Below, piece after piece: positions 8,925-53,713 of a stretch of 64,000 nucleotides of DNA (its first letter is position 1; each line of letters starts with the position of its first letter). Origin of the DNA: Thiobacillus sp. (GTDB taxonomy: Bacteria > Pseudomonadota > Gammaproteobacteria > Burkholderiales > Thiobacillaceae); the NCBI GenBank assembly GCA_030692355.1, contig JAUYCF010000083.1, forward strand, positions 1 through 64,000, given 5' to 3'. A model generated the notes under the pieces. That model had not been told where the DNA came from. It made no database searches and saw only the letters and a list, made by a program, of their open reading frames with translations. Position numbers and translations under genes: made by a program.

Positions 8925-10808
8925 TTACTCGATGGCGGGCAGGCCGCCGATGTAGCCGAAGCCTCCCTGATTCACGCCGTTACCGATCCTGGCCTGGAGC
9001 TGCGCCTTGAGGTCGGCCGGCATGCTGCCGAGCAGGTCGCCCCAGTGCTGGGTGTTGCCCATGATGTAGGCGCCCTTGCCATTGACGTTGTCTAACACCT
9101 GCAGGCCAGTGTTCTCGGCGCCGGACAGCGCGCTCATGATGCGGGTCAGCTTCTTTGTGTCGACGTTGTAGGCCCAGACGTAGTTGTTGACGTGGGTGCC
9201 CGAGTCCTCGCCGATGAAGAGGGTGCGCATCTTCTCGGAGAAGAACACGTTGTCGGCGTTGGCGACCTTGTTCGGGTTGGACGTGTTGCCCAGCGCGTCA
9301 ACCGCGATATCCTCGCCGAGCAGGCCGGCTTCCACATACATTCTGGTCGGCACGTGGTTGGAGTTGATCGCTTCGGCACCGTTGGCCGTCTTCTGGCCGC
9401 CCGCCATGTCCATGGTGTAGGTGCCGCCGGCATTGGTTTTGGCGACCTTGATGTGGTCGACCGGGCCGCTGGCATCGGCCTTCATGCCCTTGTCGATGTA
9501 GGACATGGCGATGTAGGCCTTATTGTCCTTCGCGTTGAAGGCAACGCCCTCCATCTTGTTCCACTCGGTGGTGGCGCCCAGATAGGCGGCGTAGCGGCGG
9601 GTTTCCATGAAGGCAGCGGCCTTTTCCTTGCCCGGCTTGAGCATCAGGCACTCGTCCGCCGTGGATCCGGTGCGGACGCGCGTATAACCGGCATCGCAGG
9701 CACCTCCGACGGGAGCAACGAAATCCCAGATGTCGGCGAAGGTGGTGCCGGCATCGATGATGGCCTTGATCTCGGCGTTGGTGGCATGGCCCAGCTTGAA
9801 CCAGGTCAGATCGGCCGCGCCGGCGCCGGTGGCGGAGGTCTGGTTCCATTTGGCGGCGTACAGGGTGCCGGCGGAGAGGTCTTTCTCCTTGTCGGCGACA
9901 AACATGATGAGGGCGACGTTGGTGCCATCGTCGCCCATCAAGGCGGTCCTGCTGTCGGCCATAACCATGGACATCTCCCAGGTACCGCGGCCCATCGCGT
10001 AATGCTTGACCACGCTGGTGGAGCCATCCTTGTTCACGACAACTTCCGGAATCCAGCCGTAATGGTAGGGGTTGGCGGTCTGGGTATTCTTCCAGTACAG
10101 CTCGGTCATGGCCTTGATGCCGGCGGCGGTAGTGGTAGCGTAGTTGGTGTTCAATGGGTTGAGCTGCAGATCGTAGTCCTCTTCGGAACCCAGGTGGGTG
10201 TTCCACGGCGTTTGCGAGCCGAAGCAGTTGATCCAGGTGCCGTTGACGGAGGAGAAGTCGATCGGACGCTGGGACTTCACGGACAGCGCGCCGTTGTCGG
10301 CCTGATTGATCCCGGTCAGCAGCATGCCGGTGGGCACGCGGCTGTACCAGCCGGCGGTCTTGTCGGCCTCGCTGCCGTCGGACAGCAGCCAGTCGTATTC
10401 CAGGTGGCTGACCAGCCATAGATTGCCATCGACGTTGAGCAGGCTGTTGGCATCCGGAGTTTCGAGAACCACCGGCTGGCCGTAGGGGTCGATCAGAGGC
10501 TGCATTTGGTAGTCATAAGCCTGTCCAGCCGGGTGAGCATTGCCGCCGACCTTGTCGTTGACGCCAAACAGGGTGTGATAGGCCAGGGGAAAGTCCTTGC
10601 TGGTGCCATCGTCGTAGGTCACCACGGCTTTGGCGGTGATGAAGTTCTGCGACATCGTGTCGACGGTATTGGGAGCGGCGGCGGTTTCGACAAATTCGAC
10701 CGAAACGATCCGGGCTTCGTCGTCGTCGCTGTTACACGCGGTCAATGCAAAGGGGGCGGCGAGCCCCAAAGTTGCCAGGACTGCAAGGTTCAAGATTTTC
10801 AGCTTCAT
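8925..10808 (-). CDS. PhoX-like (DUF839) phosphatase lipoprotein
   Basis: A 627-residue protein of the PhoX/DUF839 family, whose characterised members are Ca/Fe-dependent alkaline phosphatases. The family-typical segment WINCFGSQTPWNTHLGSEED and the later MEGVAFNAKDNKAYIAMS are present. The N-terminus is a lipoprotein signal with lipobox LTAC, Cys at residue 25, then NSDDD. This is unlike textbook PhoX, which is Tat-exported and has a twin-arginine signal. Likely outer-membrane or periplasmic anchoring. I see no convincing pho box upstream. Phosphatase activity is inferred from family only. Confidence 0.85.
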   Translation of the reverse strand: MKLKILNLAVLATLGLAAPFALTACNSDDDEARIVSVEFVETAAAPNTVDTMSQNFITAKAVVTYDDGTSKDFPLAYHTLFGVNDKVGGNAHPAGQAYDYQMQPLIDPYGQPVVLETPDANSLLNVDGNLWLVSHLEYDWLLSDGSEADKTAGWYSRVPTGMLLTGINQADNGALSVKSQRPIDFSSVNGTWINCFGSQTPWNTHLGSEEDYDLQLNPLNTNYATTTAAGIKAMTELYWKNTQTANPYHYGWIPEVVVNKDGSTSVVKHYAMGRGTWEMSMVMADSRTALMGDDGTNVALIMFVADKEKDLSAGTLYAAKWNQTSATGAGAADLTWFKLGHATNAEIKAIIDAGTTFADIWDFVAPVGGACDAGYTRVRTGSTADECLMLKPGKEKAAAFMETRRYAAYLGATTEWNKMEGVAFNAKDNKAYIAMSYIDKGMKADASGPVDHIKVAKTNAGGTYTMDMAGGQKTANGAEAINSNHVPTRMYVEAGLLGEDIAVDALGNTSNPNKVANADNVFFSEKMRTLFIGEDSGTHVNNYVWAYNVDTKKLTRIMSALSGAENTGLQVLDNVNGKGAYIMGNTQHWGDLLGSMPADLKAQLQARIGNGVNQGGFGYIGGLPAIE

Positions 10809-11073: not shown

Positions 11074-13038
11074 CTAAGCGCTCGCCGCTTCCAGCGCCTC
11101 AATCTCCCCCGACAATTCCAGCCACTCCCCCTCTTCAATCGCCAGTTCGTCAATGACATGCTGAAGCTGCTTGCCGGTTTCAGTAATCTCCTCGACGGAA
11201 AGCGTCCCGCCCAAGCGGGCTTCGAACGCCGCCTTTTCCGCTTGTAGCGCAGCCATGCTTTTGTCGAGTTTCTCCAGTTTCTGCTGCAACGACTTGATCT
11301 TGCCCGAGGACACCGGCTTCTTTGCCGAAACCGGCGCAGGTTCCGCCTTGACTACCGGCGCGCTAGCCACCTTGCCGGCCTCCTTCAGGCTTTCGCGCAC
11401 GCGCTTGCCCTCATCCAGCAGATAGCGCTGGTAGTCGTCCAGATCGCCGTCGAACGGCTCCACCCCGCCGCGCGTGACCAGCCAGAATTCGTCGCACACC
11501 GAGCGCAGCAGGGCGCGGTCATGGCTGACCAGCATGAGGGTGCCTTCGAATTCGTTCAAGGCCATCGCCAGCGCTTCGCGGGTGGCGAGGTCGAGGTGGT
11601 TGGTCGGCTCGTCCAGCAGCAAGAGATTCGGTCGCTGCCACACGATCATGCACAGCACCAGCCGCGCTTTTTCGCCGCCGCTCATGGTGCCGACGGCCTG
11701 CTTGACCATGTCGCCGTTGAAATTGAAGGTGCCGAGGAAGTTGCGCAGGTCCTGCTCGCGGCTGCTGAACTGGCCGGCGCCGCCGTTGGCGATGGTGTCA
11801 CGGGCGAGGCGGATCATGTGTTCCAGCGGGGTGTCTTTGGGGCGCAGCACGTCGAGTTCCTGCTGCGCGAAGTAGCCGATGTTGAGGCCGCGCCCCTCGA
11901 TCACTTCGCCCGCGACCACCGGCAAGGTGCGCGCAATCGTCTTCACCAGCGTCGATTTGCCCTGGCCGTTGGCGCCGAGGATGCCGATGCGCTGCCCGGC
12001 GAAGACCGACTTGCTGACATGCTGCACGATCACCGTGGCGGGGGTTCCGGCAGCCGCATCCGCGGGCGGCGGATAGCCGAAGCTGGCGTCGTCGATGGTC
12101 AGCATGGGGTTGGGCAGGTTGAGCGGCTCCTTGAATTCGAAGGTGAAATCCGCGCTCGCCAGCATCGGCGCCAGGCGTTCCATGCGATCCAGCGCCTTGA
12201 CCCGGCTCTGCGCCTGTTTGGCCTTGCTGGCCTTGGCCTTGAAGCGGTTGATGAACTCCTGCAAGTGGGCGATCTTGTCCTGCTGTTTGGCAAACGCCGC
12301 CTGCTGCAGCGCCATCTGCTCGGCGCGCATGTCCTCGAAGGTGCTGTAGTTGCCGCCGTAGCGGGTGAGCTGGCCGTTTTCGATGTGGATGGTGACGTTG
12401 GTCACGGCATCGAGAAACTCGCGGTCGTGACTGATCACCAGCATGGTGCCGGGGTATTTTTTCAGCCAGGCTTCCAGCCACACCAGCGCATCGAGGTCGA
12501 GGTGGTTGGTGGGTTCGTCGAGCAGCAGCAGGTCGGACGGGCACATCAGCGCCCGCGCCAATTGGAGTCTCATCCGCCAGCCGCCGGAAAAGCTGTTGAC
12601 CGGCTGATCCAGCTCGCGCACCTGGAAGCCAAGCCCGAGGATCAGCGACTGCGCGCGCGACTGCGCGTCGTGCGCGCCGGCGTCGTGCAGCGCCATGTAG
12701 GCGTGTGCCATGCGCTCGCCGTCGTCGCTTTCCTCGGCGGCGGTGACCTCGGTCTGCGCCGCGACCAACTGGCTGTCGCCGGCGATGACGAAGTCGGTTG
12801 CGGGCTCGCTCGTTTCCGGCATGTCCTGCGCCACCTGCGCCATGCGCCACTGCGACGGCATGGAAAAGTCGCCCTTGTCTTCGTGCAGGGTGCCGTTGAT
12901 GAGCGCGAACAGACTGGACTTGCCGGCGCCGTTGCGCCCCACCAGGCCGACCCGTTCGCCGGGGTTGATCGAGACCGACGCGTTGTCGAGCAAAACCTTG
13001 GCGCTACGCCGCAGGCTGAGATTCTTGAGGATGATCAT
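11074..13038 (-). CDS. ABC-F family ATPase (YheS-like)
   Basis: A soluble 654-residue protein with two ABC ATPase domains and no membrane segments, hence ABC-F. The first Walker A is GRNGAGKSSLF near residue 35 and its signature is NSFSGGWRMRLQLARAL. The second Walker A is GANGQGKSTLVKT and its signature is GTMSGGEKARLVLC. The inter-domain linker and a charged coiled C-terminal tail (lysine/alanine-rich, then LQQKLEKLDKSMA) resemble E. coli YheS. ABC-F proteins act on ribosomes; the exact role of YheS-type members is unsettled. Start ATG 13038 begins at the family N-terminus. Confidence 0.93.
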   Translation of the reverse strand: MIILKNLSLRRSAKVLLDNASVSINPGERVGLVGRNGAGKSSLFALINGTLHEDKGDFSMPSQWRMAQVAQDMPETSEPATDFVIAGDSQLVAAQTEVTAAEESDDGERMAHAYMALHDAGAHDAQSRAQSLILGLGFQVRELDQPVNSFSGGWRMRLQLARALMCPSDLLLLDEPTNHLDLDALVWLEAWLKKYPGTMLVISHDREFLDAVTNVTIHIENGQLTRYGGNYSTFEDMRAEQMALQQAAFAKQQDKIAHLQEFINRFKAKASKAKQAQSRVKALDRMERLAPMLASADFTFEFKEPLNLPNPMLTIDDASFGYPPPADAAAGTPATVIVQHVSKSVFAGQRIGILGANGQGKSTLVKTIARTLPVVAGEVIEGRGLNIGYFAQQELDVLRPKDTPLEHMIRLARDTIANGGAGQFSSREQDLRNFLGTFNFNGDMVKQAVGTMSGGEKARLVLCMIVWQRPNLLLLDEPTNHLDLATREALAMALNEFEGTLMLVSHDRALLRSVCDEFWLVTRGGVEPFDGDLDDYQRYLLDEGKRVRESLKEAGKVASAPVVKAEPAPVSAKKPVSSGKIKSLQQKLEKLDKSMAALQAEKAAFEARLGGTLSVEEITETGKQLQHVIDELAIEEGEWLELSGEIEALEAASA

Positions 13039-13144
13039 GCGGAAGATGCGGCGCGCAGAACACGCCCCGCTTAAATCGTAAAGCCGGATTTTACCCCGAC
13101 ATGGGTCCCTGCCCGTTCGGAATGTCGACAGTTTGCCGTTTCGA

Positions 13145-13174
13145 CGCCGGTTGACGGTTTTCCGTCAACCGGCG
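13145..13174. promoter_or_regulatory. 13-bp perfect inverted repeat upstream of a sigma-54-like promoter
   Basis: Arms 13145-13157 and 13162-13174 match perfectly around TTTT. No gene ends here: both flanking genes start on either side. A terminator is therefore unlikely. It lies about 87 bp upstream of the -24/-12 element, a distance where an enhancer-binding activator site would fit. Function is inference. Confidence 0.45.
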
Positions 13175-13260
13175 CAAGCGGCCCAACCGGCCCCTTCAAG
13201 ACGGACCTTGCAAGCCTTTGTTTTGTTAATTTATTTTTTCGTCACATTGCCACAGCCCAA

Positions 13261-13277
13261 TTGGCACAGGCATTGCA
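13261..13277 (+). promoter_or_regulatory. sigma-54 (-24/-12) promoter
   Basis: TTGGCACAGGCATTGCA matches the RpoN consensus TGGCAC-N5-TTGCA, with the invariant GG (13263-13264) and GC (13275-13276) separated by exactly 10 bp. Predicted transcription begins near 13288, about 26 bases before the ATG at 13314, with the ribosome site AGGAG at 13303-13307. Confidence 0.8.
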
Positions 13278-13313
13278 AGTATTTAGGCATTCCGCCTCAC
13301 CAAGGAGCGCATC

Positions 13314-13466
13314 ATGAAACTGCAATTCGGTAAAAACCAACTGGTTCTCGAACTCAGCACCTCGCCCTTCGCCTGGTTTCACGGCCAGACCGAGCGCATG
13401 AGCCTCACCAGCCTGTCACTGCTATTCGTGCAATTTTCCCTGTTTGCACGCCAGCCCGCCGCCTGA
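13314..13466 (+). CDS. small protein A of a tandem paralogous pair
   Basis: A 50-residue protein I do not recognise. ATG at 13314 has AGGAG at a 6-base distance and sits just behind a sigma-54-like promoter. There is no signal peptide, and the hydrophobic stretch SLSLLFVQFSLF is short. Residues 10-46 align without gaps to the next small protein at about 17 of 37 identical positions. The shared pattern is LS-S-P, F-G-T-RMS, SL-LLF and a final F and R. That similarity, the promoter and the ribosome site argue that it is real despite its size. Function unknown; a small regulatory or stress peptide is possible. Confidence 0.72.
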   Translation: MKLQFGKNQLVLELSTSPFAWFHGQTERMSLTSLSLLFVQFSLFARQPAA

Positions 13467-13621
13467 TGCAGGTCGGTCGAGCCACCAGCGTGAGCATCCG
13501 CCTGTCCAGTTCGCCGCTGGGATTTTTCAGCGGCAGCACCTACCGCATGTCGATGTTCAGCCTGACGCTGCTGTTCATCGAATTCCGGGTTCTGCGGCGG
13601 AGCACGCCCTACTACCCCTGA
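13466..13621 (+). CDS. small protein B of a tandem paralogous pair
   Basis: A 51-residue protein whose ATG shares one base with the TGA of small protein A (TGATG), so translation is probably coupled. It is homologous to protein A, as seen from SSSPLGFFSGSTYRMS against STSPFAWFHGQTERMS and LTLLFIEF against LSLLFVQF. The N-terminus and the C-terminal tail (RRSTPYYP) differ. No known family is recognised. Its end overlaps by 10 bp the end of the convergent histidine kinase gene. Conservation of the paired motif is the main evidence for coding. Confidence 0.7.
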   Translation: MQVGRATSVSIRLSSSPLGFFSGSTYRMSMFSLTLLFIEFRVLRRSTPYYP

Positions 13622-14919
13622 CCGCCAGGCTGCTGGCGGGGAATTTCCAGCACCGCCTCCAGACCGCCTGCCGCACGGTTCCCGAGCCGCACCTTCCAGC
13701 CGTTTATTTCCGCCAGCTGGCGCACGATCGCCAGCCCCAGCCCGGTTCCGCCCGTAAGCTGTGAGCGCGAGGCCTCCAGCCGGTAAAACGGCCTGAATAC
13801 CTTTTCCAGCTGATCGTCGGGAATCCCGGTGCCGGCATCGCGCACGATCACCCGCGCCAACGCGTCCGAACATTCCAAAGCCAGCTCGATGGGCGTGCCG
13901 CCGCCATAGCGCTGCGCATTCTGGATCAGGTTGGACACAATCCGCCGCACCGCCAGCCGCGCCACCGTGACCTCGCACGGCGCCACGCCCGCCCATGGCA
14001 GGCCCGCATCGGCCGCCACCTCCTCCAGCAATTCCGCAAGATCGAAGCGCACCTTCGTTTCGGCCTGCGTGGTCCGCGCCAGTTCCAGATAACCGGTAAT
14101 CAGCCTGTTCATGTCGGCCAGATCGGCCACCGCGCGATCAATGCGCGCAGGGTCGGGCGCATCGCGCAGCATTTCCAGATTCAACTGCAGGCGCGTCATC
14201 GGGGTGCGCAGGTCGTGCGAGATGCCTGCCAGCAGGGTGGTGCGGTTATCCAGCAGCTCGCGCACTTCGGCCGCCATGATGTTGAAGCGGCGCGCCAGTT
14301 CGGCGAGTTCGGCGGGACCGGTTTCCGGCAAGGGCTCGGGCAGCTCGCCCGCACCCACCTGGCTGGCCGCCTGCGCCGCGCGCGCCAGCGGCACGGTGAT
14401 GCGGCGCACCAGAAACAGGGCGGTCAGCAGGCTGAGAAAGGTGCCCAGCGCAACGACCGCGATCGCGGCCAGCGGCGGCTTGACGGCATAGCGGGCGGGG
14501 AAGAAGCCGACCCGCAGGTCGTGCCCGCCGACCGGGATATCCAGCCACGCCGCCGCGGTTCCCGGCACTCCGCGCAGCACGATGGTTTCACCCACGCGGC
14601 GGCTCAGCGCGGCTTCAATCTGGCTGCGGAACGCAAACCGCGGCGCATTCGCGGTCGCCCCGACATCGACGGTGGTCAGGCGCAGACCGTGACGGCGCGC
14701 CAGTTCGCGCTCGAACGCCGGACGCGTCTCGGGCGGCAGTTCCACCCAGGTCTGCGCCGACAGCACGACCAGGCCGGCCAGGTCGTCGGCCGAGCGCTCC
14801 GCCACCGGGATGATCAGGGTGCGGGTCACCACCCAGAACGCCGCCGCCTGGAACACGACGAAGGCCAGCGCCAGCGTCAGCGCGGTGCGGACGAACAGCG
14901 AGCGGGTGATGGACTTCAT
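13612..14919 (-). CDS. EnvZ-like sensor histidine kinase
   Basis: Membrane histidine kinase of 435 residues. Transmembrane helix 1 is at about 10-32, then a periplasmic domain of some 115 residues, helix 2 at about 148-171, HAMP, and the H-box AGISHDLRTPMTRLQLNLE with phosphorylated His235. N, G1 and G2 boxes follow (LIQNAQRYGGG, RDAGTGIPDDQ, GGTGLGLAI). The organisation matches EnvZ/RstB-type kinases. Start ATG 14919 (MKSITR) is preferred; an in-frame ATG at 14931 lies inside an inverted repeat. The partner regulator is directly upstream, separated by that 103-bp repeat element. The signal sensed is unknown. Confidence 0.93.
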   Translation of the reverse strand: MKSITRSLFVRTALTLALAFVVFQAAAFWVVTRTLIIPVAERSADDLAGLVVLSAQTWVELPPETRPAFERELARRHGLRLTTVDVGATANAPRFAFRSQIEAALSRRVGETIVLRGVPGTAAAWLDIPVGGHDLRVGFFPARYAVKPPLAAIAVVALGTFLSLLTALFLVRRITVPLARAAQAASQVGAGELPEPLPETGPAELAELARRFNIMAAEVRELLDNRTTLLAGISHDLRTPMTRLQLNLEMLRDAPDPARIDRAVADLADMNRLITGYLELARTTQAETKVRFDLAELLEEVAADAGLPWAGVAPCEVTVARLAVRRIVSNLIQNAQRYGGGTPIELALECSDALARVIVRDAGTGIPDDQLEKVFRPFYRLEASRSQLTGGTGLGLAIVRQLAEINGWKVRLGNRAAGGLEAVLEIPRQQPGGQG

Positions 14920-14929
14920 CGCTGGCCCC

Positions 14930-15032
14930 ATTCCATTTCAAAACTGGAAAGATCGCGAAGGCAAGCCGAAGACAGTACCCACTGTACGGCGAGGCGCAGC
15001 CGACAAAGAGATTTCCGGTTTTGAAATGGAAT
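14930..15032. repeat. 103-bp element with 21-bp terminal inverted repeats
   Basis: Arms 14930-14950 and 15012-15032 are complementary over 21 bp with one mismatch (ATTCCATTTCAAAAC then GGAAA). The interior contains a smaller ACAGT-ACCC-ACTGT palindrome. It fills the gap between the response regulator stop and the kinase start and resembles a MITE or REP-type intergenic element. No transposase is present. Confidence 0.7.
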
Positions 15033-53237: not shown

Positions 53238-53633
53238 TTATTTATAATCACGCCATTCTTCCGGCGTGTCGTCACGGTCGCCGTGCAAGTGGCTCTCGTA
53301 GACCTTCATGAAAGCCTGCTGGGATTTGATGTCCGGTTCGTCGGCCGCGACATTGCTGCGCTGCACGCTTTCGCTGAAATAAGCCAGCGCGCGTTTGAGC
53401 TTGCTCATGAGGCTGTTGTCGAGATGAAATCCCTGACTCGCCAGCGCCGTTTCCAGACCTTCCAGGGTGTATTCGCAGATGTGGTAGCGCACCAGCAGAC
53501 GGCTGCCGTCCGATCCGACCGTCGCCACCAGCCCCTCCAGTCCTTCGAGCAAAACCAGCGCGTGTTCTGCCTGACCAGACGGCAGGTCATGGAAAACAAT
53601 TTCGCGGATTTTTTCGAGGTCACATGGGCGCAT
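53238..53633 (-). CDS. conserved-looking hypothetical protein
   Basis: A 131-residue soluble protein that I cannot name. Residues 20-75 (HALVLLEGLEGLVATVGSDG followed by a VRYHICEYTLEGLETALASQGF segment) have the beta-alpha-beta rhythm of a ferredoxin-like HMA domain, without a CxxC metal site. The rest is helical, ending in an acidic tail. It lies between moeB and ctpA on the same strand. A ligand- or protein-binding module is the most I can infer. Confidence 0.7.
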   Translation of the reverse strand: MRPCDLEKIREIVFHDLPSGQAEHALVLLEGLEGLVATVGSDGSRLLVRYHICEYTLEGLETALASQGFHLDNSLMSKLKRALAYFSESVQRSNVAADEPDIKSQQAFMKVYESHLHGDRDDTPEEWRDYK

Positions 53634-53713
53634 GGCACACCACTCAGACAGAATTTATCCAGTATAGCGCTGCTATTTGTGCGGTGGCGGGTTTACAGCC
53701 ACCGCACACCAGA

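Follow-up and report, generated by a model that had tools for sequence, protein, structure and literature searches.

Two small overlapping genes of Thiobacillus sp., here called ORF1 and ORF2, encode mutually homologous proteins of about 50 residues that, as far as tested, form a new small-protein family unmatched to any known one, and their transcription is very probably under the control of sigma-54. Whether this family belongs to the exopolysaccharide regulon governed by sigma-54 together with the two-component regulator PrsR is, in our estimate, an evenly balanced question. The features on which the argument draws are the following:

13152..13167, unstranded: upstream dyad TGACGGTTTTCCGTCA, candidate sigma-54 activator site, 94 bases before the -24 element
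13211..13220, plus strand: CAA-N4-TTG, an IHF-like core with a T-rich stretch after it, located between the dyad and the promoter
13262..13277, plus strand: predicted sigma-54 promoter TGGCACAGGCATTGCA, with -24 GG and -12 GC
13302..13307, plus strand: predicted ribosome-binding site AAGGAG of ORF1, purine-rich in 46 of 48 loci
13314..13466, plus strand: ORF1, small protein of 50 amino acids, ATG start, stop codon included
13466..13621, plus strand: ORF2, paralogue of 51 amino acids, ATG start
13612..14931, minus strand: EnvZ-like sensor kinase, convergent neighbour, with HAMP, HisKA and HATPase_c domains (best NCBIfam match EnvZ, below its cut-off)

Both reading frames lie in the window (the whole stretch of 64,000 nucleotides that was analysed) as a sequence-only reading had described them, namely as two small proteins of 50 and 51 residues joined by TGATG. 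Within this motif the stop codon of ORF1 and the start codon of ORF2 overlap by one base, an arrangement kept in 44 of the 48 loci compared (the window and 47 further Thiobacillus genomes, with both copies read in all). The same reading had claimed a mutual resemblance beyond that of random frames, and this is borne out: the best ungapped register yields 17 identities over 49 positions, a number reached by none of 5000 shuffled versions of ORF2 (mean best 7.7, maximum 16). BLASTP of ORF1 against ORF2 gives 20 identities over 46 positions (E 6e-12 in a single comparison), and ORF2 was recovered from its own genome with ORF1 as the query (E 1e-6). A separate observation from the own-genome search is a possible third paralogue elsewhere in the window (53619-53702, E 0.02).

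The pair is widely retained within the genus. When ORF2 was searched against 149 relatives, with matches of E below 1e-12 counted as strong, strong matches to the pair recurred in 47 of 55 other Thiobacillus genomes; of the other eight, G040 has its locus truncated where the contig ends, and seven gave no match. A search of named records with ORF1 found 44. Of their titles, 29 name Thiobacillus, with T. denitrificans RG and T. thioparus DSM 505 among them, one says Rhizobium, and the rest are less specific. Differences from the window across the 48 loci are distributed over codon positions 1, 2 and 3 as 138, 37 and 559 for ORF1, and as 365, 185 and 563 for ORF2. Mean synonymous and non-synonymous differences amount to 0.330 and 0.060 for ORF1 and to 0.409 and 0.134 for ORF2 (first 46 codons, with pairs at a synonymous difference of 0.05 or below excluded from the means), and the median dN/dS over the 48 loci is 0.125 for ORF1 and 0.237 for ORF2 (pairs without a finite ratio excluded). 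Both genes are under purifying selection. Homologues in related genomes and codon-position bias among substitutions, the two points on which the sequence-only reading had beforehand let its case depend, are thus both present, the Ka/Ks comparison that it had proposed agrees, and ORF1 and ORF2 look like real, conserved genes.

Its further view that the proteins could be assigned to nothing known also stands, as far as tested. Searches of Pfam, NCBIfam and PHROGs at E up to 1 returned no family for either ORF, 27 family members compared with family databases including Pfam and NCBIfam gave scattered weak matches only, and the PDB yielded two chance-level matches (E 0.29 and 1.5). No title about the family appeared among the literature matches listed. 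Family members share a core of approximately T-x-R-[LM]-[SA]-x-x-S-[LI]-x-L, frequently with E or Q as the next residue. PilZ was considered on account of the TxRxSxxSL motif and rejected: the PilZ motif is D/NxSxxG, the corresponding position in family members mostly reads RxSxxS, and none of the 27 members matched PF07238 at E up to 1. Membership among the PEP-CTERM proteins, a class marked at the C-terminus by PEP, a transmembrane segment and a basic tail, was likewise rejected on the basis of the sequences and of NCBIfam, where the 27 members gave no PEP-CTERM match. By eye, no obvious signal peptide is seen in the small proteins, and the g4-type members (genera are numbered g1, g4 and so on) show no clear membrane-spanning segment in the sequences read. 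Because obvious signal peptides and PEP-CTERM features are both lacking, the ORF1 and ORF2 proteins are probably intracellular. AlphaFold predicts a single helix for each protein at low to moderate confidence (ORF1 with mean pLDDT 63 from a 44-row alignment, ORF2 with pLDDT 75.7 without alignment), in conflict with a hydrophobic periodicity that is strand-like at both ends, and we regard these models as not informative on structure.

At wider taxonomic range, a 22-row profile detected members of the protein family in 66 of 100 genomes and 7 of 12 genera of the taxonomic family to which Thiobacillus belongs, and homologues occur in three other families of the order. A 27-row profile found strong matches (E below 1e-14) in 17 of 399 genomes sampled from the order; six further weak matches there, with E above 1e-3, are probably due to chance. 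Among 369 genomes sampled from the class, the two matches were the own genome and one with an internal stop, with nothing else convincing. No relatives were found in viral contigs or plasmids, and a phage or plasmid origin was set aside. The pair is present in genera g1, g6 and g12, some g6 genomes being without any member, and a single gene was found in the loci read from g4, g8, g9, g11, g40, g46 and g95. The one exception, g4 genome G864, carries its own tandem copy (L166, 7142-7505), and this pair appears to have arisen independently from a single-copy gene. An 18-sequence tree with weak supports clusters the ORF1-type sequences of g1, g6 and g12 together and the ORF2-type sequences of g1 and g6 together, with the ORF2 of g12 apart. 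Since the ORF types group across genera in this tree, the duplication probably predates Thiobacillus; the tree suggests that it is older than the split of g1 and g6, and probably also than that of g12. The local duplication under selection that the sequence-only reading had proposed is supported.

The region upstream of ORF1 has the anatomy of a sigma-54 promoter. The pattern GGCA[CT]N5[TG]TGC, with -24 GG and -12 GC at the fixed 10-base spacing, occurs within 70 bases upstream of ORF1 in 48 of 48 Thiobacillus loci; the pattern itself fixes the two dinucleotides, so that their invariance holds by construction, yet no locus failed to match. Of 20 loci from other genera and families, 19 have a similar sigma-54-like site that precedes the start by 41-58 bases, and the twentieth (L160) has a variant site. 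The stretch 13000-14000 yielded no sigma-70-like promoter, as chance would also predict.

Further upstream, about 100 bases before the promoter as for a sigma-54 activator site, lies the candidate dyad TGACGG-N4-CCGTCA, which is exact in 39 of the 48 loci and carries one or two mismatches in six more (45/48). Counted from the -24 element it lies at -109 to -112, or at -98 in the case of L038, and it is absent from three loci, L043 with a run of N upstream, L047 and L048. Ten genomes were searched for the exact dyad: seven contain it, six of these at this locus only, while the own genome has one additional copy. The backward control pattern matches in one of the ten. Relaxed dyads of the form TGWCG-N6-CGWCA number 8 in the own genome against 9 for the control, which is a chance number. 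An IHF-like core occupies the interval from dyad to promoter in 37 of 48 loci, compared with 2.6% of shuffled regions, this relaxed form having been chosen after inspection of the sequences; its assignment follows the IHF consensus. Dyad, IHF-like core and promoter stand in canonical order and spacing, and promoters of the sigma-54 type with IHF placed between them and their activator site are an established arrangement (cited excerpt of PMC7962754). Together, these elements argue strongly for sigma-54 control of ORF1 and ORF2.

The identity of the activator is less certain, and the most likely candidate is PrsR. In the excerpted account of Haft et al. (2006, PMC1569441), PrsK-PrsR is the predicted regulator of PEP-CTERM/exosortase surface proteins that are connected with exopolysaccharide, and the predicted PrsR site is a 17-base motif ending in TTTACA, with a sigma-54 site on average 63 bases further on (32-92). 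For an Aquincola PEP-CTERM gene, the excerpt consulted reports sigma-54 dependence as shown and a role of PrsK-PrsR as probable only (PMC9850573). The own genome encodes eight strong sigma-54 activator domains, one of which belongs to PrsR (TIGR02915, 767.5 bits against a cut-off of 502.6). Upstream of all five PEP-CTERM genes detected in this genome (L229 9796, L230 19073, L231 6291, L232 9565 and L233 1056) stands TGTCGG-N5-TTTACA, which fits PrsR motif 1 and is clearly the version of this predicted motif used locally; two further matches with at most one mismatch, not at PEP-CTERM genes, were found in the 82 kb examined. A sigma-54-like site follows the motif at 62-97 bases in four of these genes and at 176 in the fifth.

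Likeness between these sites and the small-protein dyads is partial. Three of six g4 loci have dyads beginning TGTCGGAA, with the half-site TGTCGG as in PrsR motif 1, and TGTCGA occurs in the small-protein dyads of g46, g8, g12 and g6 loci; in Thiobacillus the two halves of the dyad mirror each other (TGACGG/CCGTCA), and the TTTACA half of the PrsR motif is missing. With a matrix built from the five PrsR sites and run over 21 small-protein promoters, the window scores at p 0.14 and the genera combined at p 0.02, the promoters of g40, g46, g12, g11 and g6 not scoring. The likeness of the PrsR site to the dyad is thus weak, and the activator role of PrsR is inferred. As in the PrsK-PrsR regulon of PMC1569441, in so far as the excerpt describes it, a predicted sigma-54 promoter is here combined with a candidate upstream activator site, at a spacing of 94 bases compared with the 32-92 (mean 63) given there; unlike that regulon, the products of ORF1 and ORF2 are not PEP-CTERM proteins.

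Phylogenetic co-distribution speaks in part for PrsR. PrsR exceeds its cut-off in 100 of the 399 genomes of the order sample and is present in all 17 strong carriers of the small protein (Fisher 2e-11, ignoring relatedness), and in none of the six genomes with weak matches. Conversely, 83 of the 100 PrsR genomes are without a detectable small-protein homologue, including G449 (family f35) and G138 and G182 (family f50). Among 28 hand-chosen genomes, relatedness again being ignored, PrsR is present in 17 of 17 carriers and lacking in 9 of 11 non-carriers; in G069 and G089 PrsR is present and the small protein undetected, and genus g6 is split, presence and absence of the two agreeing in the three genomes tested from it. 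The carriers come from four families, and the co-distribution therefore reflects few independent events. Taken together, we give PrsR a one-in-two chance of being the activator of ORF1 and ORF2.

Sigma-54 control could also be real and be exerted by a different activator, such as the response regulator of an MSHA cluster, a TspR-like protein or another member of the NtrC family, placing the genes in another regulon, for instance that of pili or of sulfur oxidation. The number of activator domains in the own genome allows for this, and in several carriers a PrsR-like regulator gene has genes of the AAA ATPase, secretin and GspE types as neighbours. When the MSHA-like regions fetched were scanned by script, no sigma-54-like site was preceded by a dyad starting with TG, and the presence of PrsR in every strong carrier of the order sample also argues against another activator. 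The dyad resembles the TspR site TGTCCCAAATGGGACA as well: the TspS-TspR/sox regulon of Acidithiobacillus caldus (PMC6335251, from the cited portion) shares with the present system a sulfur-oxidising host, sigma-54 two-component control (predicted here) and a 16-base 6-4-6 dyad, with the half-site TGTCCC there and TGACGG in Thiobacillus. On balance we find a different activator possible, and rather doubtful.

Some observations made during this comparison stand on their own. Second PrsR-like sigma-54 response regulators beside ATPase, secretin and GspE-type genes were seen at L236, L238, L240 and L242 (g40, g95 and g6 genomes), the MSHA-like cluster domains having been scanned in L236 only, and a regulator related to this MSHA-cluster one is encoded at C82 in the own genome. 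At L197 (1501-1516) a relaxed dyad, TGT-N10-ACA, precedes by 42 bases a sigma-54-like site that in turn lies ahead of a nitrogenase-component-type gene (PF00148); this dyad was rejected as part of the small-protein system, as it fits a NifA site instead. The own genome probably has NifA-controlled nitrogen-fixation genes.

The genomic neighbourhood raises two other explanations. One is that the products of ORF1 and ORF2 act as modulators of the EnvZ/OmpR-like two-component system encoded next to them, in the way that the small protein MgrB modulates PhoQ. An EnvZ-like gene lies on the opposite strand in 42 of the 48 Thiobacillus loci and is convergent in 13 of 13 loci from six other genera of the family. 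It is missing from six Thiobacillus loci, two of them cut short and four (L032, L036, L039 and L042) with 3-4.5 kb of sequence, and none was found in the stretch fetched around the small gene in seven of seven loci from three other families, where the neighbours include a glycerate kinase (L161), a hydroxyacid dehydrogenase (L163), a DsrE-like gene (L158) and a glycyl-tRNA synthetase region (L159). Because the EnvZ-like gene is absent from four ample Thiobacillus loci and from all seven other-family loci, a dedicated EnvZ partnership is less likely. MgrB-type regulators of sensor kinases, as covered by the cited part of PMC8404706, are similarly of about 50 residues and often adjoin a sensor-kinase gene; unlike MgrB, the small proteins (g4-type) have no clear transmembrane segment and their kinase neighbour is not conserved beyond the family, and whereas MgrB is itself regulated by the kinase that it inhibits, the small-protein gene has its own predicted sigma-54 promoter. 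An MgrB-like role is accordingly one that we hold to be unlikely. Less probable still, to the point of being very improbable, is that the locus acts as RNA, with a sigma-54 transcript running antisense into envZ and the ORFs incidental. In the window, ORF2 and the convergent envZ-like gene do share 10 bases at their 3′ ends, and the sole terminator-like match at 13000-14000 (a chance number) sits inside ORF2; against this, the reading frame governs substitutions in both ORFs, the family is retained beside different neighbour genes, and Rfam gave no match at the locus.

Two features of the surrounding DNA may be recorded here. Between the envZ-like and ompR-like genes lies an element of about 100 bases with terminal inverted repeats (14933-15029; CCATTTCAAAAC...GTTTTGAAATGG), for which one fragment match each was found in L010 and L012 among the Thiobacillus loci scanned. 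On the minus strand, 8925-10808 encodes a PhoX-type alkaline phosphatase-like lipoprotein (PF05787, E 1e-16; lipoprotein signal by eye).

The most economical reading is that the pair is an accessory of the exopolysaccharide/PEP-CTERM programme. ORF1 and ORF2 would be the duplicated form of a family of probably intracellular proteins of about 50 residues, probably switched on through their sigma-54 promoter together with a surface-polysaccharide (biofilm) programme. An enhancer-binding activator, most likely PrsR of the PrsK-PrsR system, would act from the dyad about 95 bases upstream to drive the promoter, with IHF bending the DNA in between; the resulting transcript would be translated from ORF1, with translation of ORF2 coupled to it, and the two proteins, possibly as a heteromer acting on some putative target, may serve the exopolysaccharide or floc programme. 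A bolder version, which we consider improbable in its entirety, assigns the unnamed family to the PrsK-PrsR exosortase programme as an intracellular arm dedicated to it, in which coupled duplicates made only upon commitment to exopolysaccharide form a heteromer that feeds back to envelope signalling through the adjacent EnvZ/OmpR-like system.

The PrsR regulon is described via PEP-CTERM surface proteins in the literature cited here, as far as the excerpts go. If the proposed membership is true, a conserved small protein without export signal would represent a different kind of PrsR output, and the small-protein pair would offer a reporter and a knockout target in a sulfur oxidiser. More generally, promoter anatomy combined with a phylogenetic profile can place a small gene of unknown family in a pathway.
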